From Cytophagales bacterium (lineage in GTDB: Bacteria > Bacteroidota > Bacteroidia > Cytophagales > Spirosomataceae), in assembly GCA_013298025.1 (NCBI GenBank), contig JAAFJE010000013.1, positions 1 to 64,000 on the forward strand: 64,000 bases of DNA, given 5' to 3'. A program made the position numbers and the translations under genes. The notes beneath the pieces are model-generated. The model saw nothing but the letters and a program-made list of their open reading frames with translations, was not told where the DNA came from and searched no databases. Positions 254 through 27,997 of the stretch are shown in pieces; the stretch's first letter is position 1; each line of letters opens with the position of its first letter.

Positions 254-1588
254 TTACGTATGGCTACCGCCTTGTGCCACAATACCAAAGTAGCTTTCGC
301 TGCCTACTTGTCCACCTTTGACATTGACTTCTAAACCATTGATGGCATCATTCGACGAAATAGCCCTACAAAGTGGAGCACCAGCAAAAAGCGGATGAAG
401 CATTTCGATGGCTTCAATGCCCAAAGCTCTGGCGGCATAACTAGAGGTATCGCCTCCGGCAATGAGTAGGCGTTTGAGGCGAGTAGCCTCAATAGTGGCT
501 TTGGCTATCATGCCTAGTACGTAGCCTATCAAATGGGCAGGAATTGCTTCCCCTAGATTATGGTTAGTAGTAGGACTGCTGTGTATAATTACGCTTCTTC
601 CTTTTTCAATACAAGCAATGGCTTGTTGAGCATAAGGCTGCCAATAGGCAAGTTCGTTGGTAAGCTGCTCTGTATCAAGTGAAATGCTTTCAAAACCATT
701 GTCGCAAGCCCAAGCAATTTGTTGGCTTGTCACAGGAGAGCAACTGCCCGAAATTACCAGCAGGGTATCTACCGAGGTGCTTGTTTGCCAGGCTGTTGGC
801 GGATTGAAAAGTCCCTGTTTTTGCCAATGATTACTCAAGGCTACTTCCACGCCCGAAGAACCGACCGAAAAGAAAGGTTTATGAGGTTCAATTTGTTGTT
901 CCAAAAAGCCCCCAATATGCGTCAGATTATCTTCGTTTAAAGCATCTATAAAAACAATTTTATCTTGATTATCAAGGAGTTGTTTTAATTTATTTTGAAG
1001 AATATCTAAGGGTTGAGCAACCTGAAGAATATCCAATAAGCCAATAGACAAAGAAGTTTGTTTGCCTAAATGCAAACGTAAATCGGCTTCATTGGCGGGT
1101 GTAATGGGGTGCTTTTGCATAGACGGATGGCGGTCGAGGCGATACATTTCGCCTTGGCTGCCAATGCCCATGCGTGCAAAAAGATTACCAAATAAAACAT
1201 ACCTACCCAAGGCTGGTGCCGTGACCACAATTGGCACAAAGCGATGTTGAAAAACGGCTAATCCTATTTCGATGGCTACGCCAATATTGCCGATATGTGG
1301 AGCAGAATCGAAGGTCGAACAAACCTTGTAATGGATGTGCTTGACGGGCAATTGACAAAGTTGTGCAAAATCATTATTTAGTTGCTTTTGCATTTGTTCG
1401 GGCGACATCGCCCTGCTCATACCAGCTACTCCAAAGGCTTGTATATGAGGATATTTTTGTAAAATATCAAGTGTAGGTGGTTCAAAAAACAGTATGGTTT
1501 TGATGCCCGCTTCTTCCAAAAAAGCCAAAGCATCGGTCGAGCCAGTAAAGTCGTCTCCATAAAAAGCCAAGCAATAAGACGGGTTCAT
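254..1588 (-). CDS. Four-carbon acid sugar kinase family protein (DUF1537), probable 3-oxo-isoapionate kinase
   Basis: This 444-residue cytoplasmic protein has no signal peptide. The N-terminal motif FYGDDFTGSTDAL (about residues 9-21) and the C-terminal GGDTSSYAARALG nucleotide-binding region are hallmarks of the DUF1537 / OtnK family. These enzymes phosphorylate C4-C5 sugar acids such as threonate, erythronate and 3-oxo-isoapionate. It is the last gene of an operon, 56 bp after a GH140 apiosidase, and a RuBisCO-like protein is encoded at 26759. In the characterised D-apionate pathway the kinase OiaK supplies 3-oxo-isoapionate 4-phosphate to such an RLP (OiaX), so that role is inferred here. 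A threonate or erythronate kinase is the main alternative. Family assignment is firm; substrate is context-based. Confidence 0.85.
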   Translation of the reverse strand: MNPSYCLAFYGDDFTGSTDALAFLEEAGIKTILFFEPPTLDILQKYPHIQAFGVAGMSRAMSPEQMQKQLNNDFAQLCQLPVKHIHYKVCSTFDSAPHIGNIGVAIEIGLAVFQHRFVPIVVTAPALGRYVLFGNLFARMGIGSQGEMYRLDRHPSMQKHPITPANEADLRLHLGKQTSLSIGLLDILQVAQPLDILQNKLKQLLDNQDKIVFIDALNEDNLTHIGGFLEQQIEPHKPFFSVGSSGVEVALSNHWQKQGLFNPPTAWQTSTSVDTLLVISGSCSPVTSQQIAWACDNGFESISLDTEQLTNELAYWQPYAQQAIACIEKGRSVIIHSSPTTNHNLGEAIPAHLIGYVLGMIAKATIEATRLKRLLIAGGDTSSYAARALGIEAIEMLHPLFAGAPLCRAISSNDAINGLEVNVKGGQVGSESYFGIVAQGGSHT

Positions 1589-1644
1589 GTATGGATTAAA
1601 AGAAAGTTGATACGTTTGAATAAATGTTAAAACTTTTAGCTAAA

Positions 1645-3024
1645 CTATTGATTTTCTAAAACCAATACCCAATCATTGCCTGCTTTGGTTTCGGCTGGTG
1701 GGTCGAATGTTTGCACGCCTTTTGTAGGAAATGTTCCAATCAATGTATAAGTACCATTACGAGGATTATACCAAGATACTTTAGCTTGATTACCAGTGAG
1801 ATGACTCATTTTTATACTAAAAGTACGTCCTGTATAGGTATAAACAAAAGCATATTTTTTCCCTGCTGTTGCCAAGAGGTAATCATATTTTTTGCCTTGG
1901 TCTTGTATTAAAAATTGAGCAGGTTTGCGTTCAAAGAATGGTTTTGATAAAAGTAAATTTTTGAGGTATTGCATCTGAAAAGACCCTTGCGCTTTCATGC
2001 CTTCGTGCCAAAACTCTAATGGCCCAAACGAAGTTTCTTCTCCTTTTTGGCGGTGCATTTGCATAACGGCATTTTGTCCATAAGTATAACCAAACGCTCC
2101 TGCAAATACCGACCAATACCCGTAGCGGCGTACTTCGTCGGCTGTCCAACGGGGTTGTGTTTCGTCATGCAAACCATGAGGAATCCCTTCGTAAGACGGC
2201 TCGCCATCTATGACAGGCTTGGTAGGCGTTCGTTGGTAGTCGGCCTGAATATAACGCCAATTGTCTTCGCCATAATGCCATTGTTCATTTTTAGACGTAT
2301 CTTGTGCATAGGTACGATGCCCCGATTGCACCATGTTGAAGTCGAGCCACGTTTGTTGGTGAAACCATTCGGAAGAAGAGGTGCGTCCACGAGGATGATA
2401 GGTCATGAGGTGTTTGGTATCAATTTGTCGGATAGTTTTACCAAATATTTGCCAAACTGCCAACCCTTCACTGCCTTTTATATCTCCTCCATTCAACCAA
2501 ATGATATTGCTTTTGGTAAGAAATCTTTTGGCTAAAAATGTAGCATACACTTTGGCTCGTTCGGGCGTAACGGCTTTATTTTTGACATTCCCACCCCACA
2601 TTGGTACAAAAGCAATATAGATTCCCCGTGCTGCTGCTTGGTCAATTACGTAGTCAATGTGGTCCCAAAAATCGTATTCTTGGGCAACTTCTGGACGATT
2701 GCCCGTGGTGGTAAGTGGTCGAGCAATGTTGTGGTTGACCAATGCCGAATCGCCATACAAATTGACAGCATTTAGGGTATGCAAGCCCATGACTTGAATC
2801 ACATTGAAACCTTTTTGCCGACGGTCTTCTAGGTATTGTACGGCTTCTTCACGAGTGAGCTTGGTGAATAAAAGCCAGCCCGTATCGCCTAGCCAAAAGA
2901 AGGGTTTTCCATCGGTTGTACTAAGATAACGCTGATTAGGCGTTACTTTTAAGGAAGAAAGTTGGGCATAATTTGTCGAAAATATACCCAAGAAAAAGAT
3001 GACGAATCCTATTTTTTTCAACAT
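1645..3024 (-). CDS. GH140 apiosidase (DUF4038 plus C-terminal collagen-binding-like domain)
   Basis: Secreted protein of about 459 residues. The ATG at 3024 is preferred over one at 3066 because it starts directly with the signal peptide MLKKIGFVIFFLGIFSTNYA and lies 4 bp after the upstream stop codon. A DUF4038 TIM barrel follows (FFWLGDTGWLLFTKLTREEA near the start). The likely acid/base is the Asp of WLNGGD and the likely nucleophile the Glu of VIDGEPSYEG. The C-terminal beta domain resembles the 'putative collagen-binding domain of a collagenase'. GH140 was founded on B. thetaiotaomicron BT1012, which cleaves the bond between D-apiose and galacturonic acid in RG-II side chains. Co-transcription with a pectate lyase and a sugar-acid kinase supports this activity. 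Confidence 0.85.
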   Translation of the reverse strand: MLKKIGFVIFFLGIFSTNYAQLSSLKVTPNQRYLSTTDGKPFFWLGDTGWLLFTKLTREEAVQYLEDRRQKGFNVIQVMGLHTLNAVNLYGDSALVNHNIARPLTTTGNRPEVAQEYDFWDHIDYVIDQAAARGIYIAFVPMWGGNVKNKAVTPERAKVYATFLAKRFLTKSNIIWLNGGDIKGSEGLAVWQIFGKTIRQIDTKHLMTYHPRGRTSSSEWFHQQTWLDFNMVQSGHRTYAQDTSKNEQWHYGEDNWRYIQADYQRTPTKPVIDGEPSYEGIPHGLHDETQPRWTADEVRRYGYWSVFAGAFGYTYGQNAVMQMHRQKGEETSFGPLEFWHEGMKAQGSFQMQYLKNLLLSKPFFERKPAQFLIQDQGKKYDYLLATAGKKYAFVYTYTGRTFSIKMSHLTGNQAKVSWYNPRNGTYTLIGTFPTKGVQTFDPPAETKAGNDWVLVLENQ

Positions 3025-3028
3025 AATT

Positions 3029-6000
3029 TTATTGTTTTTGTAACCAAGCAATATTGGTTTCAGCACTTGGTACAGGAATGCTTATAGATTGACCTCCTTG
3101 GATTAAGGTATTGTTTATGAGTGCTTTACCATCTTTGGCATTTATCCAAGTAAGACTAAACGTGCCTTGCTCGTGACTTAAATCAAGTTGGATAGCCTTC
3201 TTTTGTTCTTGATAAACAAGATAAGCCTTGCCCGATGCGGCGAGTACATATTGCCCTGTTTCCGTATTGGCCAAAGGCATCATCTTCGCCACTTGTTGGT
3301 ACAAAGCAGTAGGGAGGTTTGGAGGAATATTTGCCAGCGAACCTCCAGCCATCAGTACAGCCCAACCATGACTATCGAAGCCATCGGCATTGTAAGTAAT
3401 GGCTTTGTCGGGATATTGCTTGCGGTATTCATATACAGCCCGATATACTTGTTCAAACGATGAGCGTTTGGGATTGAGCAAACGAGCGTGTTGTCTTGGA
3501 GCAAGGTTTTGTCCGCCTTTGGGTTCGTAGGTTTTACCATCGGCTTGATAATGCCAGTAGCGAATATCTACGAGGTCGATGATTTGCTTTCTGGTTTTAT
3601 CGGCTAAAATGGCATCTTGTACATCTTTGGTGGTACTAAGGGCAACCAAGACGTTTTTACCTTTTTCTTTTTCCCAACGACTGATTACATCTAACCAAAA
3701 CTGCACAAAATGCAACGGTCCCGTATATTCAGCACTGATTAATTGTATCACACTGCCATTATTGACAAAATTATCTAGGCATTGCCTGATGTATGCCTCA
3801 TGAATTTGCCTTCTAATGGGATGTTGAATGTCATAGAATTGTTCAGCCATGAAAATCCGTTTGTCGCCAGCATAAGGCACAGGTTCGGGAAAGCCTGTTT
3901 GATTGACGTTATTGGCAGGTCGCCAAGGGAAATCGGCATAATGTGCTCCTGCTTCGATGATGTTGTGTTGGAAATAGTTTTGATGAAACAATACCAAGGC
4001 TTTTTGGTCGGCTAGGTTGGCAAATTGTTTCAACCGCAACCAATACCAGCGATTATACTGGGTCAAATCGTATTTACTTAGTCCATCCCAAGCACTTTCT
4101 TTGCCACTTCGGGCAAAAGGTAATTCATAAAATGGCGGCCACACCTCGCCATCCATGCGTCTGATTCTCTCGTGGTCGTCACGTCTTCTATCGTACCAAA
4201 GGCCATAATTATGGTCTAAAATACGAACATGATTGGCTTGCATCCAATCGGTTAGACTGTCGAGGTCGTCTGTAAGTCCCCAGCCTGTTTGGCCAGGCAC
4301 AAAGCGTGTGATATGCGGTTTTGCCTGTGCCAAGGCATAAGGTCTGGCACTACCCGACCACCACGGAACTTCTTGGCGACGACCTGTTTGGATAGTTTTG
4401 TCACGGGTGAGCCATCCATTTACTACTTGCAAAGGTGCTTGTTTGGCAAGAGGCTTTTGGCTAGGCACTCCAATCTTATCAATACTTTTGACTGGTGCGG
4501 TGGTTGGCAAAGATGTTCTTTGAGAGGCTTCTAGGATATAACTTTGTAAGGTTGCAGCAGGGCTAACAGACGCTTGTGTGAGAGCCAACGCTACTTCTAC
4601 TTTAGGGCTGCTCGATGCCTCTGTTTCGGTGGGCATCAAATACACACGGTTGTTTGGAAGCGTACCTAGTCTGTCGGCCAATTGGGCATAATACAAACTC
4701 CGAGGTTTGATATGTTCATTTGACATATCCCAATAGCCATCACCCGCAAACTGTGCCCACGTACCCAAAGCCCAGTTTTGTGCCGTAGGAGGTCGAAAAC
4801 ATTCTACTCTTGCGGCGGCACATTGCCAAAAAACACTGTTGGCGGCTGTCCAGCCCGCGCCTTGTCCATCTTGTCCTATATTGGCAAATCGCAAAGCATT
4901 GCCGTCTATGTTTACAATATCAAACAATACGCCCGAAGCCCAACTGTCGATAGCACCACTGTAGCTATAAGCTTGTGAAGCTTCGCATTGTACAAAAGCA
5001 TTGGGTCCTGCGGCACAATACCCTACCGCAAAAGCATGATAGCTTTGTTCGGCATATAGGCGTTGGAAAAGTGTTTGTTGTCCTGTGGTAAAAAAGGTTA
5101 AACGGCGTTGTCCTCCTATTTCTGAAATAGGTTCGGTGGCAATACAATCTTCTACCGTAACTCTTTTGGCTGTCGCTTGCACAAATACTGCCGATGATGC
5201 AAAATGCTTAAACGATACTTGTCTTACCCAAGCATCTTGTACATTTTCGAGGCTAATGCCTATCCAACGGTGGTCTTCATCTTTGGGGTTTTGGGTATTA
5301 TAAAGGGCAATTAACGAAAGGTTTTCAATACCTACTTGTTGTATGCGTCCGTTCCATTGATACGAAGCGACGCTACCACCGCCAAAATGGGCATCTAGTG
5401 CCGTAGTAATAGGGGCATCAATGCTGATGGTATTGCCTTGAATAGCTGTGATGGTTCTGTCCCAAAAAAGTTCTCGTTGATTGGGTTTCCATCCCAGTGC
5501 AGTGACTCCCCCCCCAAAATGATTTGTGCCTAACGTATCAATCCATGCTTGGGTTGAAGGGCGACGAATAATGATTTTATCACCTATGTTTAGGTTATGC
5601 TTGTCGGCTACCTCAAAGGTTTGGGCATTGACAGGCACATAACTAGATGTAATAGCAAAAGGTGTAGAAACTATGCGGTCATATTTTCCTTTTACATAAA
5701 TGAATGTGTCACGGTTATCAAGCGACGCTACCAGCTTTGTCCCATTGTCTGCCATTCCTGCTCCTCTGAGAATTACACCTGAGTTACGCATAAAAAGACT
5801 TCCCTCTAGGTTGTAAGTTCCTTTTTCGAGTAATACTACGCCTCTGATACCTGTGGCATCGACTGGTAAGGTTGCTACGTAGTCTAGTGCTGCCTGAATG
5901 CGAGCGGTGGCGTCGCCTTTCTGGCATGGTACTATTACTTGTATCGTACCAATAGGCAAGGGCAATGCCCCTGCCATGTAGCCACAATAAGAAAAATCTG

Positions 6001-6151
6001 GCATACGATTGCCCTGCGTGTCGGGTGTATAAGCCAGTTTTCCTGTGGCATCAACATAGATGGGTGGCAAAGGTTTGCGTGGCTTTTGTTGAGCCATCGC
6101 AAACCCTGAAATGAATAAGAACGAAAGAAATGAAAGAAACTTTCTCGGCAT
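3029..6151 (-). CDS. DUF6298 family protein: beta-helix domain fused to a barrel-like domain
   Basis: Secreted 1040-residue protein with signal peptide MPRKFLSFLSFLFISGFAMA. The N-terminal ~480 residues read as a right-handed parallel beta-helix of the pectate-lyase type (KGTYNLEGSLFMRNSGVILR, GISLENVQDAWVRQVSF). The C-terminal half, from about residue 600, is rich in aromatic and acidic residues and looks like a TIM-barrel glycosidase domain (DHNYGLWYDRRRDDHERI, QLISAEYTGPLHFVQFWLDV). I match it to DUF6298, which I know only as an uncharacterised family of pectin loci. Its stop codon is 4 bp before the GH140 start, so the two are translationally close. A two-enzyme polypeptide acting on an RG-II fragment is plausible but unproven; catalytic residues are not assigned. 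Confidence 0.65.
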   Translation of the reverse strand: MPRKFLSFLSFLFISGFAMAQQKPRKPLPPIYVDATGKLAYTPDTQGNRMPDFSYCGYMAGALPLPIGTIQVIVPCQKGDATARIQAALDYVATLPVDATGIRGVVLLEKGTYNLEGSLFMRNSGVILRGAGMADNGTKLVASLDNRDTFIYVKGKYDRIVSTPFAITSSYVPVNAQTFEVADKHNLNIGDKIIIRRPSTQAWIDTLGTNHFGGGVTALGWKPNQRELFWDRTITAIQGNTISIDAPITTALDAHFGGGSVASYQWNGRIQQVGIENLSLIALYNTQNPKDEDHRWIGISLENVQDAWVRQVSFKHFASSAVFVQATAKRVTVEDCIATEPISEIGGQRRLTFFTTGQQTLFQRLYAEQSYHAFAVGYCAAGPNAFVQCEASQAYSYSGAIDSWASGVLFDIVNIDGNALRFANIGQDGQGAGWTAANSVFWQCAAARVECFRPPTAQNWALGTWAQFAGDGYWDMSNEHIKPRSLYYAQLADRLGTLPNNRVYLMPTETEASSSPKVEVALALTQASVSPAATLQSYILEASQRTSLPTTAPVKSIDKIGVPSQKPLAKQAPLQVVNGWLTRDKTIQTGRRQEVPWWSGSARPYALAQAKPHITRFVPGQTGWGLTDDLDSLTDWMQANHVRILDHNYGLWYDRRRDDHERIRRMDGEVWPPFYELPFARSGKESAWDGLSKYDLTQYNRWYWLRLKQFANLADQKALVLFHQNYFQHNIIEAGAHYADFPWRPANNVNQTGFPEPVPYAGDKRIFMAEQFYDIQHPIRRQIHEAYIRQCLDNFVNNGSVIQLISAEYTGPLHFVQFWLDVISRWEKEKGKNVLVALSTTKDVQDAILADKTRKQIIDLVDIRYWHYQADGKTYEPKGGQNLAPRQHARLLNPKRSSFEQVYRAVYEYRKQYPDKAITYNADGFDSHGWAVLMAGGSLANIPPNLPTALYQQVAKMMPLANTETGQYVLAASGKAYLVYQEQKKAIQLDLSHEQGTFSLTWINAKDGKALINNTLIQGGQSISIPVPSAETNIAWLQKQ

Positions 6152-6167
6152 GAGCTTTACACAAAAG

Positions 6168-7805
6168 TTATAATGGTTTTACCGTCTTAATATCAACTAC
6201 GCTATTCAAAAACTCTTCTATATTGGTATAGCCATCTTTGTCACGGTCTTTGCTGGCATCTGTGGCATCTTTCGGATTCAAGCCATGACTTGTTTCCCAA
6301 GCATCGGGCATTCCATCGTTGTCACTGTCTTTGTAAGGCGTACCTTGATATATCGGATAGCCGCCCACTTGGTTGATGTCGGTGATGATGCCATTTTTGT
6401 AGGAATCAATAGGTAAACGACGGTGCTTAAATTGCGATGTAGGGAGTTGTACATCTTCTTTATAAGTAATCTTTCCTGTTTTAACTTGTGCAATGACACG
6501 GGTATCAACGGCATCTCTTTTAGGCAAGTTTGCTCCTGCATTGGTCAACACATAGCTATATGCTTTTTCTGTAGGTAAAATACTGAGCTTAGGCATAGGC
6601 AATGGTTTTGTCCAACGAATAGAGTCGAGGTATTGCCCAGCGTTAGGAAGGTTCTCTACTTGTACACCGCCATCCCAGTTGTTTTTAGTGATACGGTCGT
6701 TTCCTTCCATAATATTACCACTCACATACGCTCTTCCGAAGGTAAGATATTTGAGTTTACTTCTGCCTGATTCGGGTTTCAAAATACGGTAGCCAATCGG
6801 CGAATCTTTAGGCGTAAGTGGTCCAGGTTTAAAATAGTTATTGATAATATTGTACATTGCACGGTAGTCGCCTCCGTCAATAGAGCGGTGTACCCAGTTG
6901 AATACAACGTTGTTGGTAAAATTGAAAATGCCATACCAACCAATCGAAGGGTTACGCCCTGCGTTGTCGGCCCAAAGGTTGCGCATGAATGTACAATTTT
7001 CGCCTCCGAGGGTGCTACCAAATGCGTGGTTCCACGTGTCTAAAGCTTCGGAAAAAATAGAGTTTTGAATCGTAATATTAACCGTTGGAAGCTTATCTTC
7101 AATCTTGCCTGTGCTGTCGTTGTACATGTGGCGATACATCGACATATTTTCATCTAAACCCCAGCTTGCCGATACGTGGTCTATCATGATATTTCCAATA
7201 GGATTGCCTCCGATAGAATCATCTCTACGCCCAACATTGGTTTCTCCTCTTCTAAAACGCATATAGCGAACAACTACGTCGTGGGTATTAATCCATACCG
7301 ATTCGCCAGCAATACATACACCGTCGCCGGGGGCGGTTTGCCCTGCAATGGTAATGTACGGTGCTCTGATGATAAGTGGTCGTTTCAAACGAATAATACC
7401 TGCTACATTAAATACAACAATTCTTGCTCCACCTTGCTCGCAGGCATCTCTGAATGAGCCTGGTCCGCTGTCTTCGAGGTTTGTTACAACAATTACTTTG
7501 CCACCACGACCGCCAAACGAAAATGCTCCACCGCCTTCTGCCCCTGGAAAAGCAGGGATTTCGGCTTGTGGTAAATCAATCGGGCGAGCCGCCCAAGGAA
7601 TATAAGGTTTGCCATGTTTGGCATCATATTGAATAATGGGCCATGCTTTTTGCCAAGCAATATCAGATAATCTCCACGTTTCTTTTAATAATGAATCACT
7701 GGCTTTTTGAATATTTTCTGGAATGGTGGGGTATTGTCCTTTGGCGTTGAATTGTCCTGCCAACAAGCCTACTAAGACATACAAGGATAAAAGTATTTTT
7801 TTCAT
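6168..7805 (-). CDS. PL1 family pectate lyase with C-terminal calcium-binding repeat
   Basis: Secreted 545-residue protein with signal peptide MKKILLSLYVLVGLLAGQFNA. The domain from about residue 85 (IPAFPGAEGGGAFSFGGRGG, VVTNLEDSGPGSFRDACEQG, ITIAGQTAPGDGV) is a classic Bacteroidota PL1 beta-helix, which cleaves polygalacturonate by Ca2+-dependent beta-elimination. Near the C-terminus DSDNDGMPDAWE and DRDKDGYTNIEEF form thrombospondin-type-3 or EF-hand-like calcium loops often appended to this subfamily. It is the first gene of the operon and sits 17 bp before the DUF6298 gene. Its promoter carries the AraC-type direct repeats at 7920-7949. It probably cuts homogalacturonan backbone around RG-II so that side-chain enzymes gain access. 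Confidence 0.9.
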   Translation of the reverse strand: MKKILLSLYVLVGLLAGQFNAKGQYPTIPENIQKASDSLLKETWRLSDIAWQKAWPIIQYDAKHGKPYIPWAARPIDLPQAEIPAFPGAEGGGAFSFGGRGGKVIVVTNLEDSGPGSFRDACEQGGARIVVFNVAGIIRLKRPLIIRAPYITIAGQTAPGDGVCIAGESVWINTHDVVVRYMRFRRGETNVGRRDDSIGGNPIGNIMIDHVSASWGLDENMSMYRHMYNDSTGKIEDKLPTVNITIQNSIFSEALDTWNHAFGSTLGGENCTFMRNLWADNAGRNPSIGWYGIFNFTNNVVFNWVHRSIDGGDYRAMYNIINNYFKPGPLTPKDSPIGYRILKPESGRSKLKYLTFGRAYVSGNIMEGNDRITKNNWDGGVQVENLPNAGQYLDSIRWTKPLPMPKLSILPTEKAYSYVLTNAGANLPKRDAVDTRVIAQVKTGKITYKEDVQLPTSQFKHRRLPIDSYKNGIITDINQVGGYPIYQGTPYKDSDNDGMPDAWETSHGLNPKDATDASKDRDKDGYTNIEEFLNSVVDIKTVKPL

Positions 7806-8171: not shown

Positions 8172-8233
8172 AAAATGGTATAATCTTATGTGAAAATATT
8201 ACAAAAAATAGGCAAAATAAGCCTGTACTTTTG
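8172..8233 (+). promoter_or_regulatory. AraC-type operator and promoter B, before the GH2-GH106 operon
   Basis: Half-sites AAAATGGTA (8172-8180) and AAAATATTA (8193-8201) start 21 bp apart. The -7 element TACTTTTG (8226-8233) starts 33 bp after the second half-site start. It agrees with promoter C far beyond the half-sites, including GTAC.TTTGT around the -7. Confidence 0.75.
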
Positions 8234-8296: not shown

Positions 8297-10711
8297 ATGC
8301 TTAAAAAGTATTTGTTGGCCTTTGCTTTATTGGCTGGTAGCCTATCATTGCAGGCACAATCGGCTGCCCGAATCGTGCAAGCCTTGCACAAAGATTGGCT
8401 TTTTTTTTTAGGAGACAACATACAGGCTTCTGCTGTTATATTTGATGATGCCCAATGGCGTAAACTAAACCTGCCGCACGATTGGAGTATAGAAGGTGTT
8501 TTTGCCGAAAACCACCTCACTACTACCCAAGGAGGTGCTTTGCCTACAGGAATTGCTTGGTATCGTAAGCATCTTACCGTACCGAAAGATTATGCAACAA
8601 AGAAAATCTATATCGAATTTGATGGTATTTATCGGGATAGCGAAGTCTGGATTAATGGGCATTCGGTCGGAAAACGCCCTTTCGGATATAATTCTTTTCG
8701 CTACGAACTCAGTCAATGGATTCGCTTTGGCGAAGATAATGTGATTGCCGTAAGAGTTGACAATAGCCAGCAGCCCAATTCTCGTTGGTATTCGGGTTCG
8801 GGTATTTATCGTTATGTACGCTTGGTTTGTACCAATGCTATTGCCGTTGACCACTGGGGAACGTTTGTTACAACGCCCAAAGTAAATGCCCAACAAGCCT
8901 TGGTTTCTGTACAAACCCGTTTGCATAATGCAAGTCGACAAGTCCAGCCTGTTGTCTTACGTTCTATTTTATACGATGCTCAAAATCAGGAGGTAAAACG
9001 TAGCGAAAGCCGTCTTTTGCTACCCGATACGGGTATTGTTGTTATGCAAAACATGACGGTTGTCAAACCTTCGTTATGGACTTTAGCCAAGCCTTCGCTG
9101 TATCGCCTAAAAACCGAAGTATGGCAAGCCGAGCAATTACTAGATGTATATGATACAACTGTTGGTATCAGAAGCTTTCGTTTTGATGCCCAAAAAGGTT
9201 TTATCCTCAACGAACAACCCACCAAAATTTTAGGCGTATGCAATCACCACGATTTAGGGGCATTAGGGGCTGCTGTCAATGTGCGTGCTATGGAACGCCA
9301 ATTAACGCTTTTAAAACAAATGGGTTGCAATGCCATCAGGATGTCGCATAATCCGCCAGCTCCAGAACTATTGGATTTATGCGATAAAATGGGCTTTATT
9401 GTCATGGACGAAGCTTTTGATATGTGGAAAAAGAAAAAGTCTAAAAAAGATTATGGGCTTTTTTGGGAACAATGGCACCAACAAGACCTAGAGGCAATGG
9501 TCAAACGTGACCGTAATCACCCGTCGATTTTTGTATGGAGTATTGGCAATGAAATCAGGGAGCAATTTGATAGCACAGGAACAAGCATTGCAAAAGAGTT
9601 GGCTCAACTTGTAAGAAAATGGGACAATACACGGCCTATTATTTCGGCATTGACAGAGAATGAACCCAACAAAAACTTTATCTATCAATCCAAAGCCTTA
9701 GACTTATTGGGTTTTAATTACAAGCATGAAGATTACCCTTTGTTGCCCCAACGTTTTCCGCAACAAGTGCTCTTGGCAACAGAAACGGCATCGGCACTGG
9801 CTACTCGTGGACGTTACGATATGCCCAAAGATAGTATTCAATTATGGCCCAAAACAGCCAAAAGTCCTTTGGTAGAAGGAAATGCTGCCTTGGCCGTAAC
9901 GGCGTATGATAATGTAGCCGCTTATTGGGGCACAACACACGAAGAATCATGGAAGGCGGTAAAAAAATCACCTTTTATAGCTGGCTTGTTTGTTTGGAGT
10001 GGGTTCGATTATTTAGGCGAACCGCATCCGTATCCTTGGCCTGCTCGTAGCTCTTATTTTGGCATTATTGATTTGGCAGGCTTTCCTAAAGATGTGTATT
10101 ATATGTATCAAAGCGAATGGACAATACAGCCCGTACTTCATTTGTTACCGCATTGGAATTGGACTAAAGGACAAAGCGTAGATGTGTGGTGCTATTATAA
10201 CGAAGCTGATGAAGTAGAATTATTTTTGAACGAGCAGTCGTTGGGTATTCGTAAAAAAGAAAAAGATGCCATCCACGTAGCATGGAAAGTGCCTTTTCAG
10301 GCAGGTACATTACAAGCTGTTTCGAGAAAAGCAGGACAAGTTGTGTTGCGTAAAACCATACAAACGGCAGGAAAAGCCTACCAAATTGTTTTGGAAGCAG
10401 ACAGAAAAATCTTGAATGCCGATGGCGAAGATTTAGCCTTTGTTACCGTTAAAGTAACCGATGAACAAGGAAACCTTGTGCCAGAAGCCAATCATCTTAT
10501 CAATTTTCAAGTAACAGGTGCAGCTACGTTGGCAGGAGTTGATAATGGTTATCAAGCAAGTATGGAATCGTTCAAAATGCCTTATCGTCATGCTTATAAT
10601 GGTTTGTGTTTAGCCATTTTACGAACAACCGAACAAACGGGAACGATTCAGCTAACAGCAACTGCCGAAGGTTTATTACCCCAAACGCTTGTGTTGGAAA
10701 GTAAGAAGTAA
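8297..10711 (+). CDS. GH2 family glycoside hydrolase (beta-galactosidase-like)
   Basis: Secreted 804-residue protein with signal peptide MLKKYLLAFALLAGSLSLQA. Order of parts: N-terminal jelly-roll sugar-binding domain (WRKLNLPHDWSIEG, GIAWYRKHLTVP, VWINGHSVGKRPFGY), Ig-like domain, and TIM barrel from ILGVCNHHDLGALGAA. The acid/base Glu lies in VWSIGNE (about residue 418) and the probable nucleophile in LLATETAS (about residue 495). A C-terminal Ig-like domain (GEDLAFVTVKVTDEQGN) follows. This is the common Bacteroidota beta-galactosidase layout, but GH2 also includes beta-glucuronidases, beta-galacturonidases and arabinopyranosidases, several of which act on RG-II. It is followed 39 bp later by a GH106 gene and driven by promoter B. 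Confidence 0.88.
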   Translation: MLKKYLLAFALLAGSLSLQAQSAARIVQALHKDWLFFLGDNIQASAVIFDDAQWRKLNLPHDWSIEGVFAENHLTTTQGGALPTGIAWYRKHLTVPKDYATKKIYIEFDGIYRDSEVWINGHSVGKRPFGYNSFRYELSQWIRFGEDNVIAVRVDNSQQPNSRWYSGSGIYRYVRLVCTNAIAVDHWGTFVTTPKVNAQQALVSVQTRLHNASRQVQPVVLRSILYDAQNQEVKRSESRLLLPDTGIVVMQNMTVVKPSLWTLAKPSLYRLKTEVWQAEQLLDVYDTTVGIRSFRFDAQKGFILNEQPTKILGVCNHHDLGALGAAVNVRAMERQLTLLKQMGCNAIRMSHNPPAPELLDLCDKMGFIVMDEAFDMWKKKKSKKDYGLFWEQWHQQDLEAMVKRDRNHPSIFVWSIGNEIREQFDSTGTSIAKELAQLVRKWDNTRPIISALTENEPNKNFIYQSKALDLLGFNYKHEDYPLLPQRFPQQVLLATETASALATRGRYDMPKDSIQLWPKTAKSPLVEGNAALAVTAYDNVAAYWGTTHEESWKAVKKSPFIAGLFVWSGFDYLGEPHPYPWPARSSYFGIIDLAGFPKDVYYMYQSEWTIQPVLHLLPHWNWTKGQSVDVWCYYNEADEVELFLNEQSLGIRKKEKDAIHVAWKVPFQAGTLQAVSRKAGQVVLRKTIQTAGKAYQIVLEADRKILNADGEDLAFVTVKVTDEQGNLVPEANHLINFQVTGAATLAGVDNGYQASMESFKMPYRHAYNGLCLAILRTTEQTGTIQLTATAEGLLPQTLVLESKK

Positions 10712-21041: not shown

Positions 21042-22040
21042 ATGAAAAAAATAGGGATTATCCTGCTTTTATTGGTGGGATTGGTGGATGCTTTTGCCCA
21101 AAATACGGCAAAATATCCTGTTAAATTTACTGTAGCTCAAGATGGTACAGGCGATTTTAAGACGATTCAAGAAGCGATTATGGCTTTTCGTGACCATTCG
21201 CAAGAGCGGGTTGTCTTGTTTATCAAAAATGGTACGTATCACGAAAAAATAGTGATTCCTGCCAATAAACCAAACTTGCATTTGGTCGGCGAAAGTCGTG
21301 CAGGTGTAGTCATTACCAATGCCGATTATTCAGGAAAATCGTACCTCAACAACCAAAAAGATGCCGTGGGTAAAACGCAGTTTAGTACCTACAATTCTTA
21401 TACATTTTTGGTTGATGCCCCGGACATTATCATCGAAAACCTTACCATTCAAAATGCTTCGGGGCGTGTCGGACAAGCGGTGGCGTTGCATGTAGAAGGT
21501 GATAGGTTTGTATGTAAAAACTGTTTGATTTTAGGTAATCAAGACACCTTGTATGCCGCAAAAGAAGGCAGTCGCCAGTATTATGTGCATTGTCAAATAG
21601 AAGGTACAGTCGATTTTTTATTTGGTAAAGCCATCGCTGTGTTTCAATCTTGTGTGCTCAAAAGTTTGTCTGATTCCTATGTTACTGCCGTTGCAACGCC
21701 AGCATATCAGCCGTATGGATTTGTATTTTTCGATTGCAAATTGGTAGCTGATTCTTCTGCCAAAAAAGTGTATTTAGGGCGACCTTGGCGACCATATTGC
21801 AAAACGGTATTTATTCGTACCGACATGGGTGGTCATATTTTACCTGTTGGTTGGCATAATTGGGGAAATCCTGAGAATGAAAAAACGGTTTTATATGCCG
21901 AATACCAATCCACTGGCACAGGAGCAAATCCTTCAAAAAGAGCTACTTGGAGCAAACAGTTGAAGAAAAAAGAGTTGTCGGCTTATACTTTAGCGAAAAT
22001 TTTTGGAACAAAAGAAAACCTGCCTACTTGGTGGGAATAA
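21042..22040 (+). CDS. CE8 pectin methylesterase
   Basis: About 332 residues; the ATG at 21042 begins a signal peptide (MKKIGIILLLLVGLVDAFA) and is preferred over 20982. CE8 motifs are present in order: GTGDFKTIQEAI at the N-terminus, GNQDTLYA (catalytic Asp), GTVDFLFGKA (second Asp) and LGRPWRPY (substrate-binding Arg and Trp). It removes methyl esters from homogalacturonan and supplies free galacturonate stretches to the GH28 and PL1 enzymes. It is co-transcribed with GH28 and ends at a strong hairpin shared with the convergent DUF5703 gene. Confidence 0.93.
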   Translation: MKKIGIILLLLVGLVDAFAQNTAKYPVKFTVAQDGTGDFKTIQEAIMAFRDHSQERVVLFIKNGTYHEKIVIPANKPNLHLVGESRAGVVITNADYSGKSYLNNQKDAVGKTQFSTYNSYTFLVDAPDIIIENLTIQNASGRVGQAVALHVEGDRFVCKNCLILGNQDTLYAAKEGSRQYYVHCQIEGTVDFLFGKAIAVFQSCVLKSLSDSYVTAVATPAYQPYGFVFFDCKLVADSSAKKVYLGRPWRPYCKTVFIRTDMGGHILPVGWHNWGNPENEKTVLYAEYQSTGTGANPSKRATWSKQLKKKELSAYTLAKIFGTKENLPTWWE

Positions 22041-22055
22041 ATGATGAATTTAGTG

Positions 22056-22091
22056 TAAGGTTGTAAATCATTATTTTAGTTTACAACCTTA
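22056..22091. terminator. Bidirectional hairpin terminator
   Basis: TAAGGTTGTAAA (22056-22067) pairs perfectly with TTTACAACCTTA (22080-22091) around a 12-nt AT-rich loop. It lies between the convergent CE8 and DUF5703 genes. Confidence 0.8.
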
Positions 22092-22097
22092 TAAATA

Positions 22098-24392: not shown

Positions 24393-24610
24393 AGAAAGAT
24401 TTAGCTCAAATACGGTTATTTGTTGCTGTTAAAACCCGTATCCTGCCAAAAATACTCAAAATAGCCCACAATGTTTTTAAAATCAGTACAATATTATCAT
24501 TTTACAAATCCCTATCATGCTCTATCGTTTTTGATAAAATATTCATTAATACCTGTATTGTAGAAAAGAAATTAGCCTAGTTCCAAGATTTTATTGGGAA
24601 TAGTAAAGGT
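24393..24610. other. Left part of the DUF5703 / GH127 divergent intergenic region
   Basis: The gap 24393-24713 is 321 bp. Its left part holds the DUF5703 promoter candidate. AATATTGTA (24495-24487) and AAAATGATA (24503-24495) on the minus strand resemble the AraC half-site but lack its spacing. The right part is promoter C. No gene is seen. Confidence 0.45.
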
Positions 24611-24672
24611 AAAATGGTATAATACTTTGAGAAAATGGTACAAAAAAAAACTTATGTAAGCTAGTACCTTTG
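24611..24672 (+). promoter_or_regulatory. AraC-type operator and promoter C, before the GH127-RLP operon
   Basis: Two identical half-sites AAAATGGTA (24611-24619 and 24632-24640) start 21 bp apart. The -7 element TACCTTTG (24665-24672) starts 33 bp after the second half-site start, with a leader of about 35 nt. It is the clearest of the four copies. Confidence 0.8.
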
Positions 24673-24713
24673 TTAAGCTAATGATAAGATTTTATACTAT
24701 TTAAACCATCATC

Positions 24714-26741
24714 ATGTTGAAAGTTGTCTTCCACTATCTTTGCTTAGGGCTTTGTATGCTCGCTGTCAAGCCTTTAGTTGCACAAGATAAAGCACTTACC
24801 AATACGCAAAAAAGCAAATTTTCTCTCCTCAAAAGTGTCGATATGGGAGCAGTAGCTTGGACCAAAGGCTTTTGGGCGAATCGTTTTGAGGTTTGTCAAA
24901 AAACAATGGTACCAACCCTTTGGGAGCGTTATACCGATACCGTTGCTTGTCATGCTTTTCACAATTTTGAAGTAGCCGCAGGGTTGAAAAAAGGCCGATT
25001 CCGAGGCCCTTCTTTTCATGATGGCGATTTCTACAAAACATTGGAAGCCCTTGCCAGTATGTACGCCAGCACCAAAGACCCACAATTGGACAAGCTCATG
25101 GACAAAGCCATTGCGGTGATTGCTCAGGCTCAAATGCCCGATGGCTATATTTATACAAAATCTATCATCGAGCAAAAAAACACAGGCAAGCCCAAAATGT
25201 TTGATGATAAATTGAGCTTTGAGGCGTATAATTTTGGCCATTTGATGACAGCCGCTTGTGTGCATTATCGTGCTACAGGCAAAACTTCGTTGCTTACCAT
25301 TGCCAAAAAAGCTACCGATTTTTTGATTGGTTTTTATAATACCGCAACGCCCGAACAAGCCCGCAACGCCATTTGTCCTTCGCATTACATGGGTATTGTA
25401 GAAATGTATCGTACCACAGGCGAAGCCAAATATTTAACCCTTGTGAATAAACTTATCACGATTCGGGGCGAAAGTGAAGGAACAGACGATAATTCTGACC
25501 GTGTGCCATTTCGTCAGATGCGAAAAGTGATTGGTCATGCTGTGAGGGCTAATTACTTGTTTGCAGGTGTAGCCGACGTATTTGCCGAAACGGGCGATAC
25601 TACCTTGCTCAAGCCACTTCACACACTTTGGGACGATGTAGTTAATCACAAAATGTATGTTACAGGTGCTTGTGGAGCGTTGTACGATGGCGTTTCGCCA
25701 GATGGTACGGCTTATAAGCCCGATACCGTACAAAAAATTCACCAAGCTTATGGTAAAGCCTACCAATTGCCTAATCATTCGGCACACAACGAAACGTGTG
25801 CCAATATTGGTAATTTGCTCTGGAATTGGCGTATGCTTCAACTCACGGGCGAGGCAAAATATGCCGATGTGATGGAATTGGCTTTGTACAACAGCATTTT
25901 GTCGGGTATCAATCTCGAAGGAAACAAGTTCTTTTATACCAATCCGTTGGCGGCTTCCGACGCATTTCCATACCAATTGCGTTGGTTTGGTGGTCGTCAG
26001 GCGTATATTAGCAAATCTAACTGTTGTCCGCCCAACGTTGTTCGTACCATTGCCGAGGTGAGCAATTATGTGTATAGTTTTGCCAATAATGGTATTTATG
26101 TGCATTTGTATGGGGGCAATACGCTGTCAACACAAACACCCGACGGACAAAAAATTTCACTCGAACAAATCACAGATTATCCTTGGAATGGACTTATTCG
26201 TTTGAAAATCAAAGAGATTACGAGTAAATCTTACAACTTTTATTTGCGTATTCCAGCTTGGGCAGATGGGGCTGAAGTGTGGATTAATGGGAAAAAACAA
26301 AACCTAGCGGTGCAAGCAGGTACATACCTAGCGTTACAAAAAAATTGGCAATCAGGCGATGAAATTCAATTGCGTTTACCGATGGAGGTGCAATTACTCG
26401 AATCGAATCCTTTGGTAGAAGAAACCCGGAACCAAGTTGCTGTCAAACGTGGGCCACTTGTGTATTGTTTAGAATCTACCGATTTATCCACAGCACAAAA
26501 AGTAGCTCAAATCAGTATTCCTGTGGCAAGCCAATGGACGACCAAAACGCAGAAAATTGTAAATGCCGATGTTGTGATGCTCGAAACGCAAGCCAAAACC
26601 TTTGCCCCTCAAACATGGATCACGCTGTATAAACCTGTACAAAAACAAGCACAAACAACCAAAATTACCTTAGTTCCTTATTTCGCTTGGGCCAATCGTG
26701 GGCATTCTGAAATGAGCGTTTGGTTGCCTTTAAGTCGATAA
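24714..26741 (+). CDS. GH127 family glycosidase (beta-L-arabinofuranosidase / aceric acid hydrolase type)
   Basis: Secreted 675-residue protein of the former DUF1680 family, with a signal peptide ending near KPLVA. The zinc/cysteine catalytic centre is intact: Glu and Cys in NETCANIGN and the Cys pair in SNCCPPN. The mature N-terminus (GFWANRFEVCQKTMVPTLWE) and the FHDGDFYKTLEALA segment of the (alpha/alpha)6 barrel fit too. In GH127, HypBA1 cleaves beta-L-arabinofuranosides and BT1003 releases aceric acid from RG-II. The RG-II context favours an activity like the latter, but sequence reading cannot separate them. It is the first gene of a seven-gene operon; the RuBisCO-like gene starts 17 bp after its stop. 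Confidence 0.88.
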   Translation: MLKVVFHYLCLGLCMLAVKPLVAQDKALTNTQKSKFSLLKSVDMGAVAWTKGFWANRFEVCQKTMVPTLWERYTDTVACHAFHNFEVAAGLKKGRFRGPSFHDGDFYKTLEALASMYASTKDPQLDKLMDKAIAVIAQAQMPDGYIYTKSIIEQKNTGKPKMFDDKLSFEAYNFGHLMTAACVHYRATGKTSLLTIAKKATDFLIGFYNTATPEQARNAICPSHYMGIVEMYRTTGEAKYLTLVNKLITIRGESEGTDDNSDRVPFRQMRKVIGHAVRANYLFAGVADVFAETGDTTLLKPLHTLWDDVVNHKMYVTGACGALYDGVSPDGTAYKPDTVQKIHQAYGKAYQLPNHSAHNETCANIGNLLWNWRMLQLTGEAKYADVMELALYNSILSGINLEGNKFFYTNPLAASDAFPYQLRWFGGRQAYISKSNCCPPNVVRTIAEVSNYVYSFANNGIYVHLYGGNTLSTQTPDGQKISLEQITDYPWNGLIRLKIKEITSKSYNFYLRIPAWADGAEVWINGKKQNLAVQAGTYLALQKNWQSGDEIQLRLPMEVQLLESNPLVEETRNQVAVKRGPLVYCLESTDLSTAQKVAQISIPVASQWTTKTQKIVNADVVMLETQAKTFAPQTWITLYKPVQKQAQTTKITLVPYFAWANRGHSEMSVWLPLSR

Positions 26742-26758
26742 TTTTTAAATACATTTTT

Positions 26759-27997
26759 ATGGAAAGAATTGTTGCCACATATTATATCGAAACCCCTTTT
26801 GCCCCCGAAAAAGCGGCGGCTGTCTTGGCAGGCGAACAATCGTCTGGAACTTTTGTGGCTGTGCCAGGCGAAACAGAGGAGCTAAAACAACGCTTTGCCG
26901 CCAAAGTAGAAGAAGTTACTTTCTTAGAAACGGTGAGCGAACCCGCTATTCCGGGTGCGAGTAGTGCCACAGGGCAGTACCACAGGGCTTTGGTGAAAGT
27001 TTCGTGGTCGATAGAAAATTTTGGGTATAATTTGCCTGTGATGATTTCTACTTTACAAGGAAATCTCTACGAAATTCGTCAATTTACAGGGTTGAAATTG
27101 CTTGATATACAATTGCCTGCTTCTTTTGCCGACCATTACAAAGGCCCTGCTTTTGGAATAGAAGGCTGTAGAAAATTGACACAGGTATATAATCGTCCGT
27201 TGATTGGTACAATTATTAAACCGAGCATCGGACTCACACCTGAGCAAACAGCCGAAACGGTAAAGATTTTGGCAGAAGCAGGGATTGATTTTGTCAAAGA
27301 CGATGAACTGATGAGTTCATCCGCCAATTCGCCTTTTGAAAAAAGAGTGGATGCCATCATGGATGTGATTAATCGCCATGCCGATAAAACAGGCAAAAAA
27401 GTGATGTATGCCTTTAACATTAGCGGTGAAATAGACGAAATGATGCGTCGCTACGAAAAAATTCTTGCTTCGGGTGGTACGTGTGCTATGCTTAGTATCA
27501 ATAGTGTAGGCATTGCTGGCGTAAAGAAAATCACCGACCAACGGGCTTTGGCGATTCACGGGCATCGTAACGGCTGGGGAATGCTCACCCGTCATCCCTT
27601 GCTTGGCATCGAATTTACGGCTTATCAGAAACTTTGGCGTTTGGCTGGTGTTGACCAATTGCACGTGAATGGTATTCAAAACAAGTTTTGGGAGTCGGAC
27701 GATTCTGTTACAACTTCTATCAAGGCTTGTCTCGAACCGATGTTTGGAGGCTATGAATTATTGCCTGTGGTGTCGTCGGGACAATGGGGCGGACAAGCTC
27801 CCGAAACTTACCGTAGAACCCAAACCGTCGATTTGCTGTATATGGCTGGTGGCGGTATCATGGCACATCCGAGTGGTGCAGCGGCTGGCGTAGTGGCTTT
27901 GCAACAAGCTTGGCAAGCGGCAGTACATGGCTTGTCAGTCGAGCAGGCGGCGGCAATTTACCCCGAATTTAAGCAGTCGGTAGAAAAATTTGGTTAG
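26759..27997 (+). CDS. RuBisCO-like protein (form IV), probable 3-oxo-isoapionate-4-phosphate transcarboxylase/hydrolase
   Basis: Cytoplasmic, about 412 residues; the start MERIVATYYIETPF at 26759 is the family-typical one. RuBisCO landmarks are kept: TIIKPSIGL (first active-site Lys region), DFVKDDE (about residue 178, the carbamylated Lys with the Mg-binding Asp and Glu), HGHRNGWGM, SSGQWGG and GGGIMAHPSG (phosphate loop). The loop-6 region reads NGIQNKFWES, unlike true RuBisCO, which marks it as an RLP. RLPs include MtnW-type enolases, methylthio-sugar isomerases and OiaX, which splits 3-oxo-isoapionate 4-phosphate into glycolate and 3-phosphoglycerate. Being inside a pectin operon, with GH140 and a DUF1537 kinase nearby, argues for OiaX. 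No methionine-salvage gene is present. Confidence 0.88.
   Translation: MERIVATYYIETPFAPEKAAAVLAGEQSSGTFVAVPGETEELKQRFAAKVEEVTFLETVSEPAIPGASSATGQYHRALVKVSWSIENFGYNLPVMISTLQGNLYEIRQFTGLKLLDIQLPASFADHYKGPAFGIEGCRKLTQVYNRPLIGTIIKPSIGLTPEQTAETVKILAEAGIDFVKDDELMSSSANSPFEKRVDAIMDVINRHADKTGKKVMYAFNISGEIDEMMRRYEKILASGGTCAMLSINSVGIAGVKKITDQRALAIHGHRNGWGMLTRHPLLGIEFTAYQKLWRLAGVDQLHVNGIQNKFWESDDSVTTSIKACLEPMFGGYELLPVVSSGQWGGQAPETYRRTQTVDLLYMAGGGIMAHPSGAAAGVVALQQAWQAAVHGLSVEQAAAIYPEFKQSVEKFG

Follow-up and report, generated by a model that had tools for sequence, protein, structure and literature searches.

The RuBisCO-like protein (RLP) and the DUF1537-family kinase encoded in the window (the whole stretch of 64,000 nucleotides that was analysed, from a Cytophagales bacterium) belong to a conserved four-gene cassette, together with a one-cysteine Asp/Glu-racemase-fold protein and an SBF/PanS-like symporter. 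Judging from gene neighbourhoods and protein families, it is moderately probable that this cassette encodes a pathway for aceric acid, not for apiose. Aceric acid (3-C-carboxy-5-deoxy-L-xylose), a sugar acid with a branched carbon chain, occurs in RG-II, a plant polysaccharide of great complexity for which the enzymes of disassembly are known. No description of the intracellular fate of aceric acid was found in open-licence literature, and searches of that literature for RLPs together with rhamnogalacturonan or with the DUF1537 kinase family gave no description of an aceric acid pathway. If true, our reading fills this gap and extends kinase and RLP chemistry, already known for apiose and hamamelose, to a third branched sugar.

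Gene organization of the window

Features of the window are listed in Table 1. The GH140 and kinase genes are paired in one leftward operon, with a gap of 56 nt between them. The RLP, whose KDDE centre is intact (residues 180-183), lies in an RG-II-like operon along with genes for the GH127 aceric acid hydrolase, BT_1020-like propeller, GH43, SASA esterase, GH2, SSF symporter and two GH78-type proteins. The kinase and the RLP are both tied to RG-II genes, as the original prediction had it. That prediction was silent on the aceric acid hydrolase identity of the gene immediately 5' of the RLP, whose ATG is located 17 nt downstream of the hydrolase stop codon. The nearest solved chain is 5mqo for this GH127 and 3kzs for the GH140 apiosidase, which also matched entry 5msy. 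Pfam profile search with the product of the first gene of the leftward operon gave zero matches.

A promoter-like motif occurs in two copies in the window, compared with none in 100 shuffles. The kinase and RLP operons had been predicted to carry the same AraC-type promoter. Two operons do share the motif; its orientation does not suit the kinase operon, since both copies are on the plus strand and copy 1 faces the rightward GH2/GH106 operon, away from the GH140 and kinase genes.

Table 1. Coordinates of genes and promoter-like motifs in the window
Feature	Position	Strand	Evidence
DUF1537-family sugar-acid kinase, OiaK-like, 444 aa	254..1588	-	PF07005 + PF17042; best NCBIfam model OiaK
GH140 apiosidase, upstream of kinase	1645..3024	-	PF13204 377.6 bits; start codon ATG
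DUF6298 protein, member of leftward kinase/GH140 operon	3029..6151	-	PF19815 834.5 bits
PelZ-like pectate lyase-related protein, first gene of leftward operon	6168..7805	-	NF041900 138.8 bits, under cut-off 840
Promoter-like motif copy 1, facing GH2/GH106 operon that begins at 8297	8172..8207	+	exact pattern match
Promoter-like motif copy 2, facing aceric acid hydrolase/RLP operon	24611..24646	+	exact pattern match
GH127 aceric acid hydrolase, BT1003 type	24714..26741	+	NF049879 1145.3 bits, cut-off 950
RuBisCO-like protein (RLP), 412 aa, racemase/SBF-associated clade	26759..27997	+	PF00016 221.7 bits
BT_1020-like beta-propeller + sialidase-like CBM	28015..29853	+	PF24067, PF22585
GH43-like arabinosidase	29891..30799	+	PF04616, PF22847
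SASA-type carbohydrate acetylesterase	30815..32233	+	PF03629
GH2 exo-beta-galactosidase-like	32277..35048	+	GH2 Pfam domains; NF049891 994.3 bits, under cut-off 1700
SSF-family sodium/solute symporter	35067..36653	+	PF00474; TIGR00813 220.1 bits, cut-off 184 passed
GH78-like alpha-L-rhamnosidase	36878..39064	+	PF21209, PF17389
GH78 alpha-L-rhamnosidase	39057..41858	+	PF17389, PF08531, PF05592

The four-gene cassette and its members

Neighbourhoods of up to 10 kb per side were analysed at 80 named loci, 74 in the RLP clade described below and 6 outside it. All four cassette genes are present within 10 kb in 67 of the 80; taken singly, the kinase is found in 75, the racemase-fold gene in 72 (including one at locus L146 outside the clade, 48% alike and on the opposite strand), the SBF gene in 68 and a PF16896-type oxidoisomerase in 4. 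The racemase-fold gene and the oxidoisomerase never occur together (0/80). Loci with the cassette belong to Bacteroidota, Balneolota, Verrucomicrobiota and Planctomycetota.

The cassette is not contiguous in the window genome: the RLP accompanies GH127, the kinase accompanies GH140, and the racemase-fold gene (182227-182886) and symporter gene (180915-182183) reside beyond the window, at the opposite end of this contig. This contig starts and ends in apparent parts of one insertion sequence type, so the kinase and racemase-fold genes might adjoin across the contig ends; comparison of these ends revealed no exact overlap. In a sister genome (G001) the two genes are about 85 kb apart. Another genus mate (G003) is devoid of the RLP, kinase, racemase-fold gene and cut-off-passing aceric hydrolase all together.

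The window RLP is a member of the RuBisCO superfamily by its PF00016 domain and KDDE-type carbamate/metal site. Its best NCBIfam model is OiaX (NF042437, 518.2 bits), below the cut-off of 700; a control Rhizobium OiaX scores 777.8 bits. In a 99-row RLP tree, from which L034, L035, L043, L037, L033, L070 and L148 were left out (incomplete sequences, duplicates, or RLPs divided between two frames), it falls in a separate clade of 78 rows (SH-aLRT 99). L148 was placed outside this clade by its PF16896 neighbour gene, not by the tree. K180, D182 and E183 are kept in all 78 clade rows. The same is true for E26, N87, H302 and S339, and N220 is kept in 77; the annotated OiaX rows (n=3 compared) have D26, A/S87, G220, Q302 and G/C339 in window numbering, so that the clade differs at all five columns.

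The kinase likewise scores best with OiaK (NF042436, 406.6 bits), ahead of the 3-oxo-tetronate kinase model OtnK (191.2) and the threonate kinase model DtnK (102.1). It stays under the OiaK cut-off of 700, as does a kinase adjoining an annotated OiaX (471.7). In the kinase tree, for which one clade row in three was taken (48 of 97 rows), the genome's second DUF1537 protein and OtnK are placed outside all other rows. The kinase gene is mostly found directly 3' of the RLP outside the window genus; within it, four genomes (G000, the window's own, G001, G002 and G004, represented by the window and loci L038-L040) have it behind the GH140 gene. With OiaK and OiaX as best models, and with the kinase present in 12 of the 13 RLP-bearing relatives, the two proteins do form the predicted pair of OiaK/OiaX-type superfamilies.

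The racemase-fold protein has the superfamily fold and lacks the two catalytic cysteines, one per face, of Asp/Glu racemases. Cys75 is present in 79/79 rows, and the second site, which we place by racemase alignment and the known motif, reads Gln183-Ala184-Ser185 in 79/79. For the symporter the nearest model is PanS (organic acids), whose cut-off it does not reach.

Association with aceric acid hydrolase and alternative substrates

Aceric-type GH127 lies near the cassette in 32 of the 74 clade loci and is the commonest neighbour among the glycosidase/esterase references compared, which were taken from the window and its relatives, families beyond that set being uncounted. It is followed by GH142N (15), GH78a (13), GH106 and GH2b (11 each), GH141 (10) and GH140 (3). 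Directly upstream of the RLP, aceric-type GH127 is found in 22 loci, as in the window, and GH2b, the next, in 5. At the level of whole genomes, an aceric acid hydrolase of at least 800 bits is encoded in 70/74 clade genomes versus 1/6 other genomes of the set (L145 with 558 bits excluded, L148 with 907 bits included); these genomes are not independent, and the Fisher tests on them ignore phylogeny. The clade genomes devoid of it at this threshold are L076, L078, L091 and L144, with a piece at the contig edge in L076 and L091. A Croceibacterium plasmid locus (L151) was dropped from the supporting loci, its GH127 not being aceric-type (87 bits).

A general RG-II lifestyle may underlie this association. 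Among 149 relatives, 30 have an aceric hydrolase over the cut-off, and 20 of these 30 have no RLP match, so that the hydrolase can occur without the cassette. Moreover, 42/74 clade loci, among which some contigs are cut, show no nearby aceric hydrolase with half its length or more. RG-II loci being crowded, all this would also suit a cassette for a different acid of RG-II (Dha, Kdo or a uronic acid) that neighbours the hydrolase only as a fellow RG-II gene. We consider this improbable. A separate gene set on the contig fits Dha or Kdo better, and aceric acid is to our knowledge the only branched acid of RG-II. The sugars that kinases and RLPs of this type are known to act on, apiose (excerpts of PMC6302742) and hamamelose (excerpts of PMC8914248), are both branched.

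Apiose, also an RG-II component, could be used by a novel route in which the racemase-fold protein replaces the oxidoisomerase and some dehydrogenase acts first. The shared kinase and RLP superfamilies, the RG-II context and the pairing of kinase and GH140 in the window genus agree with it. On the other hand, the cassette contains no redox enzyme, its usual neighbour is the aceric hydrolase and not the apiosidase, and its conserved transporter is nearest to an organic-acid model, whereas apiose is neutral. Such a route is thus unlikely as well.

The original prediction had coupled apiose release by GH140 to RLP-based apionate catabolism, that is, conversion of apiose to apionate and by oxidoisomerase to 3-oxo-isoapionate, phosphorylation by OiaK and splitting by an OiaX- or transcarboxylase-type RLP. 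Best matches of kinase and RLP to the OiaK and OiaX models and the gene order GH140-kinase in four genomes of the genus speak for it. It had also staked this route on an oxidoisomerase in the genome, an enzyme that we take to be the PF16896 family. Search of the own genome retrieved zero PF16896 members, and 0/46 named clade genomes searched contain any; four positive controls all matched and, having been chosen for a PF16896 gene beside the RLP, demonstrate that the search works, nothing more. No RLP with an adjoining PF16896 gene falls inside the clade in the tree, and GH140 is rare near the cassette. Apionolactonase (NF049900) has no match in the own genome; matches were detected in 5/14 genomes searched, none over the cut-off, and three of these genomes (G032, G075, G085) also have a clade RLP. 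Lack of an oxidoisomerase had been named beforehand as a refuting outcome, and cassette partners and neighbours point to aceric acid; the proposed coupling is not upheld, and we regard this route as very unlikely. Apparently missing TIM/RpiB isomerases were weakened as an argument: homologues of both adjoin oiaX in Rhizobium, and none occur within 6 kb of the Paracoccus and Sinorhizobium oiaX loci, whose gene tables are incomplete, so their apparent absence at the cassette says little.

Finally, a role as methionine-salvage enolase (MtnW) or true RuBisCO, proteins with which the RLP has the fold and KDDE motif in common, can be dismissed on model scores far behind that of OiaX (PRK09549 186.0 bits, cut-off 409; TIGR03332 146.1, cut-off 513.6; RuBisCO III 248.2, cut-off 497.45), in line with the original expectation that the RLP would not group with methionine-salvage enolases.

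Proposed aceric acid pathway and known systems

From the gene families of the cassette, their linkage and the RLP clade, we infer the following steps for aceric acid. The sugar would be freed by the GH127 aceric acid hydrolase and imported by the SBF/PanS-like symporter. The racemase-fold protein would convert the aldose to the 2-ketose, which the DUF1537 kinase would phosphorylate at O1. The predicted RLP substrate, 3-C-carboxy-5-deoxy-pentulose 1-phosphate, would be a beta-keto acid whose sole difference from 3-oxo-isoapionate 4-phosphate is CH(OH)CH3 in place of CH2OH. Transcarboxylation/hydrolysis would yield 3-phosphoglycerate and L-lactate; we slightly prefer this outcome, which is favoured by the active-site columns unlike those of annotated OiaX (n=3). 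Alternatively, decarboxylation could give 5-deoxy-pentulose 1-phosphate, from which a rhamnulose-phosphate-type aldolase could form DHAP and acetaldehyde. Counting against the transcarboxylase option, the OiaX model gives the window RLP a better score (518) than a presumed transcarboxylase-type RLP (411), and the OiaX rows are the weakly supported sister (81) of the window RLP's clade. No characterised transcarboxylase/hydrolase RLP (Xanthobacter) was among the plasmid-collection records listed (40, 60 and 50 of about 366).

In its complete form our proposal is tentative and rather doubtful: a first aceric acid catabolic pathway, common to the four phyla, that a new one-cysteine aldose-ketose isomerase with the Asp/Glu-racemase fold would feed. 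The RLP would shift the carboxyl group within a plant-derived branched sugar phosphate and cleave this compound to 3-phosphoglycerate and L-lactate. No other aldose-ketose isomerase with this fold is known to us.

In D-apionate RLP pathways, which Carter et al. are said to have described in 2018, OiaK reportedly acts with either the decarboxylase OiaX or a transcarboxylase/hydrolase RLP. Formation of 3-phosphoglycerate and glycolate had been assigned to OiaX in the original prediction; NCBIfam names OiaX a decarboxylase, and excerpts of PMC6302742 ascribe decarboxylation and transcarboxylation/hydrolysis to two different RLPs, so that the assigned reaction is that of another RLP. Like these pathways, the cassette combines side by side a DUF1537 kinase and an RLP with intact KDDE centre, the likely RLP substrate being a branched beta-keto sugar-acid phosphate. 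In contrast to them, the window genome has a racemase-fold protein and SBF symporter instead of PF16896 and apionolactonase, and its RLP, from a separate clade, misses the OiaX cut-off and active-site residues and adjoins an aceric acid hydrolase.

The RG-II system of Bacteroides thetaiotaomicron comprises the same enzyme kinds (NF049879 GH127, GH140, BT_1020-like) and, as far as we know, no RLP. Its aceric acid hydrolase is BT1003 (excerpts of PMC10850190); no description of aceric acid use by this species was found in the literature searched. The Ochrobactrum anthropi RLP of the D-hamamelose pathway (Kim et al. 2018, through excerpts of PMC8914248), for which 3-phosphoglycerate and glycolate are named, similarly acts last in the breakdown of a branched sugar, though a different one.

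The cassette is small and present in named cultured strains, so the proposed pathway is testable. The Rufibacter copy of the RLP is annotated merely as 'ribulose-bisphosphate carboxylase large subunit family protein', a label that this pathway, if true, corrects.

Window genes and the apionate route

Genes for the DUF1537 kinase, GH140 and the RuBisCO-like protein (RLP) are intact at the positions originally predicted (see table), and the kinase contains two DUF1537 domains. The best model for the kinase is OiaK, the kinase of the D-apionate route (407 bits, versus 191 for 3-oxo-tetronate kinase and 102 for threonate kinase), and the best model for the RLP is OiaX, the decarboxylase RLP of this route (518 bits, versus 248 for type III RuBisCO and 186 and 146 for methionine-salvage enolase MtnW). 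Both proteins miss the curated cut-off of 700. Rhizobium OiaX, used as control, passes it (778 bits); since the kinase adjoining that OiaX also fails (472 bits), the OiaK cut-off says little.

These genes had been assigned to apiose catabolism through apionate. We take PF16896 to be the apionate oxidoisomerase family, which is supported by the proximity of its genes to the annotated oiaX and the kinase of Rhizobium and Paracoccus. Neither a PF16896 protein nor a match to the apionolactonase model NF049900 was found in the genome harbouring the window; relatives G032, G075 and G085 each have an NF049900 match. Using OiaX and OiaK models, 149 related genomes (own included) were surveyed. Each model matches 13 genomes and both match 12, the exceptions being G013, whose fragmented genome yields just the RLP, and G136, in which the sole match is a weak one to the kinase (118 bits). 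Two of the 13 RLP genomes (G027 and G141) show RLP, kinase, PF16896 and NF049900 genes in a row, which is the apionate arrangement. Among the 14 genomes searched, no PF16896 protein was found in the other 11 RLP genomes, including that of the window. The apiose reading of the locus is thus not supported and the apionate route was rejected, although the observation itself is real and well placed.

A putative AraC-type promoter common to both operons had also been proposed. The shared intergenic pattern has exactly two exact copies in the window, both on the forward strand. They precede the aceric acid hydrolase/RLP operon and the GH2/GH106 operon divergent from GH140/kinase; since the latter copy faces away from GH140/kinase, the proposal is true of the RLP operon only.

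Features of contig JAAFJE010000013.1 (window, positions 1-64,000)
Feature	Position	Strand	Remark
DUF1537 kinase	254-1588	-	
GH140	1645-3024	-	
RLP	26759-27997	+	
Phage-type integrase	41936-42883		start of region 41936-49852 with small ORFs further on
Small ORF	44864-45328		no Pfam match
Small ORF	45982-46521		no Pfam match
Small ORF	48815-49852		weak metallopeptidase-toxin-2 match, under cut-off
Locus L065	165916-182886		outside window
SBF symporter	180915-182183		far end of contig, outside window
Racemase-fold gene	182227-182886		far end of contig, outside window

A four-gene RLP cassette

Eight RLPs of the 11 genomes devoid of PF16896 were aligned with that of the window, to which they are 72-87% identical. 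In seven genomes (the window genome, G001, G054, G060, G069, G075 and G085), a gene of about 220 codons from the Asp/Glu-racemase family adjoins an SBF symporter gene, the closest model of which is PanS, with scores below its cut-off. With a profile of the racemase-fold protein, 10 of these 11 genomes gave a match; elsewhere in the 149 there was a single weak one (74 bits). Genus mate G003 has no RLP, kinase or racemase-fold gene and no aceric acid hydrolase above cut-off; cassette genes of another genus mate, G001, are identical to those at RLP locus L069.

Named-species genomes were then scanned, the best 80 of at least 574 relatives being retained and up to 10 kb on either side of the RLP considered. 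In these 80 loci, the kinase is found near the RLP in 75, the racemase-fold gene in 72, the symporter in 68 and all together in 67. PF16896-type genes occur in four loci, none of which contains the racemase-fold gene. Hosts include Flectobacillus, Arcicella, Dyadobacter, Runella, Hymenobacter, Pedobacter, Mucilaginibacter, Flavobacterium and Chitinophagaceae, as well as Fodinibius, Pelagicoccus, Verrucomicrobia and Planctomycetes. On a plasmid of Rufibacter tibetensis, these four genes follow one another, annotated under generic names.

In a 99-row RLP tree (quick method, SH-aLRT support only), the window RLP falls inside a 78-row clade with support of 99. The clade consists of 75 racemase-linked rows plus the window RLP, with its split cassette, and two rows from cut contigs (L088 and L124); it contains no PF16896-linked row. 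Its sister group, with weak support (81), is formed by annotated OiaX rows. PF16896 was found in none of the 46 clade genomes searched (out of 74), the four positive controls having been chosen for a PF16896 gene beside their own RLP. In a 48-row kinase tree, kinases from non-clade loci group together (support 99/96) and those from clade loci fall into no single supported group; OtnK (3-oxo-tetronate kinase) and the second DUF1537 protein of the window genome are distant.

Both ends of the contig (bases 1-260 of the window and the final 320 bases) read as insertion sequence parts with an inverted stretch in common, and are flanked by the kinase and the racemase-fold gene. An insertion sequence may have split the cassette here, or ended the contig.

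Aceric acid as putative substrate

A GH127 aceric acid hydrolase gene (1145 bits, model NF049879, cut-off 950) ends 17 nt upstream of the window RLP. PMC10850190 gives the name aceric acid hydrolase to BT1003. Within the flanks considered, 32 of the 74 clade loci (from the best 80 of at least 574 relatives) contain an aceric-type GH127 that is at least half complete, and in 22 one, whole or cut, immediately precedes the RLP on its strand. Other reference proteins are found near the RLP less often (GH142N 15, GH78a 13, GH106 11, GH2b 11, GH141 10, GH140 3). Aceric acid hydrolase of at least 800 bits is encoded in 70 of the 74 clade genomes versus one of the six others, compared by tests that treat related genomes as independent; 57 of the 80 have it above the curated cut-off. 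Of the 149 relatives, 30 have the hydrolase above cut-off; it is present in all 11 clade-type RLP genomes (in G013 a piece of 836 bits). Against this stands the fact that 20 of the 30 relatives with hydrolase above cut-off give no RLP match; the hydrolase thus often occurs where the cassette does not, and these bacteria leave aceric acid unused or use something else. Since the genomes are related and specialists on rhamnogalacturonan II (RG-II) have many RG-II genes in common, co-occurrence is less specific than adjacency and the organic-acid-type transporter. On balance, the genes represent a distinct, widespread RLP cassette whose most likely substrate is aceric acid, not apiose. Gene families, linkage, the clade and the lack of the apionate enzymes looked for are direct results, whereas the substrate, the order of the steps and the products are inferred.

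Aceric acid bears both carboxyl and hydroxyl on C3. Its 2-ketose 1-phosphate, P-O-CH2-CO-C(OH)(COOH)-CH(OH)-CH3, has CH(OH)CH3 in place of the CH2OH of 3-oxo-isoapionate 4-phosphate, and shares the 2-carboxy-3-keto unit with the six-carbon RuBisCO intermediate. Because of this resemblance, we infer that kinase and RLP of these families would be enough after one aldose-ketose isomerisation of aceric acid, for which the remaining cassette enzyme, that with the racemase fold, is the candidate. An AlphaFold2 model of this protein from Flectobacillus longus (54-row alignment, pLDDT 94.7) was compared with the PDB using Foldseek, and matches Glu, Asp, allantoin and hydantoin racemases (best E 5.6e-09, TM 0.76). 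Cys75 is conserved in 79 of 79 rows, and the second catalytic cysteine site is Gln-Ala-Ser in all of them. Racemases require two bases, one per face, and aldose-ketose isomerases just one, so the one-cysteine site would suit an isomerase; the main alternative is a decarboxylase.

By analogy with apionate and hamamelose RLPs, the products would be either 3-phosphoglycerate and L-lactate or CO2 and 5-deoxy-pentulose 1-phosphate. For RLPs from two bacteria, PMC6302742 describes decarboxylation and transcarboxylation/hydrolysis of 3-oxo-isoapionate 4-phosphate; a loosely phrased statement in PMC8914248 ends the hamamelose pathway with an RLP, with 3-phosphoglycerate and glycolate. E26, N87, H302 and S339 (window RLP numbering) are kept in all 78 clade RLPs and N220 in 77, mostly as in non-OiaX RLPs, whereas the corresponding residues in three annotated OiaX rows are D, A/S, Q, G/C and G, respectively. 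As clade residues are unlike OiaX, the transcarboxylase/hydrolase outcome is slightly favoured over decarboxylation. Rhizobium oiaX adjoins genes for triose-phosphate isomerase and an RpiB homologue, both missing from the Rufibacter cassette; this argument is weak because neither was seen at Paracoccus and Sinorhizobium oiaX loci. The OiaX model scores the window RLP above the presumed transcarboxylase type, which points the other way. The joint reading, an aceric acid pathway in which the one-cysteine isomerase feeds an RLP shifting the carboxyl to yield 3-phosphoglycerate and L-lactate, is offered as a tentative and rather unlikely whole. No published account of the pathway was found in open-licence literature on aceric acid catabolism or on RLPs with rhamnogalacturonan or with this kinase.

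Neighbouring and related loci

Beside the symporter and racemase-fold gene, locus L065 contains genes for an SSF symporter, the second DUF1537 kinase, PdxA, a DHDPS-family aldolase, Fe-alcohol dehydrogenase, BNR protein, GH78, Gfo/Idh, GH141 and a GH130/GH142N-like protein. This set looks like catabolism of RG-II Dha or Kdo. Homologues of the dehydrogenase, aldolase, PdxA and kinase shortly follow the RLP cassette in a verrucomicrobial locus (L122).

Outside both the OiaX group and the 78-row clade, RLPs of Azospirillum, Bradyrhizobium, Cupriavidus and Haloarcula loci occur with kinase and TRAP transporters (L154, L156), in L152 and L159 also with a PF16896-like gene in the stretch; short-chain dehydrogenases are found at some of these four. 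In L148 (Verrucomicrobia), a frame or stop break divides the RLP into two pieces; it adjoins a kinase frame of full length as well as a PF16896-like gene. An alphaproteobacterial locus on a Croceibacterium plasmid (L151) combines RLP and DUF1537 kinase with alpha-fucosidase, beta-galactosidase and non-aceric GH127, and its stretch contains no gene of PF16896 type; here the same RLP/kinase module perhaps serves another substrate.
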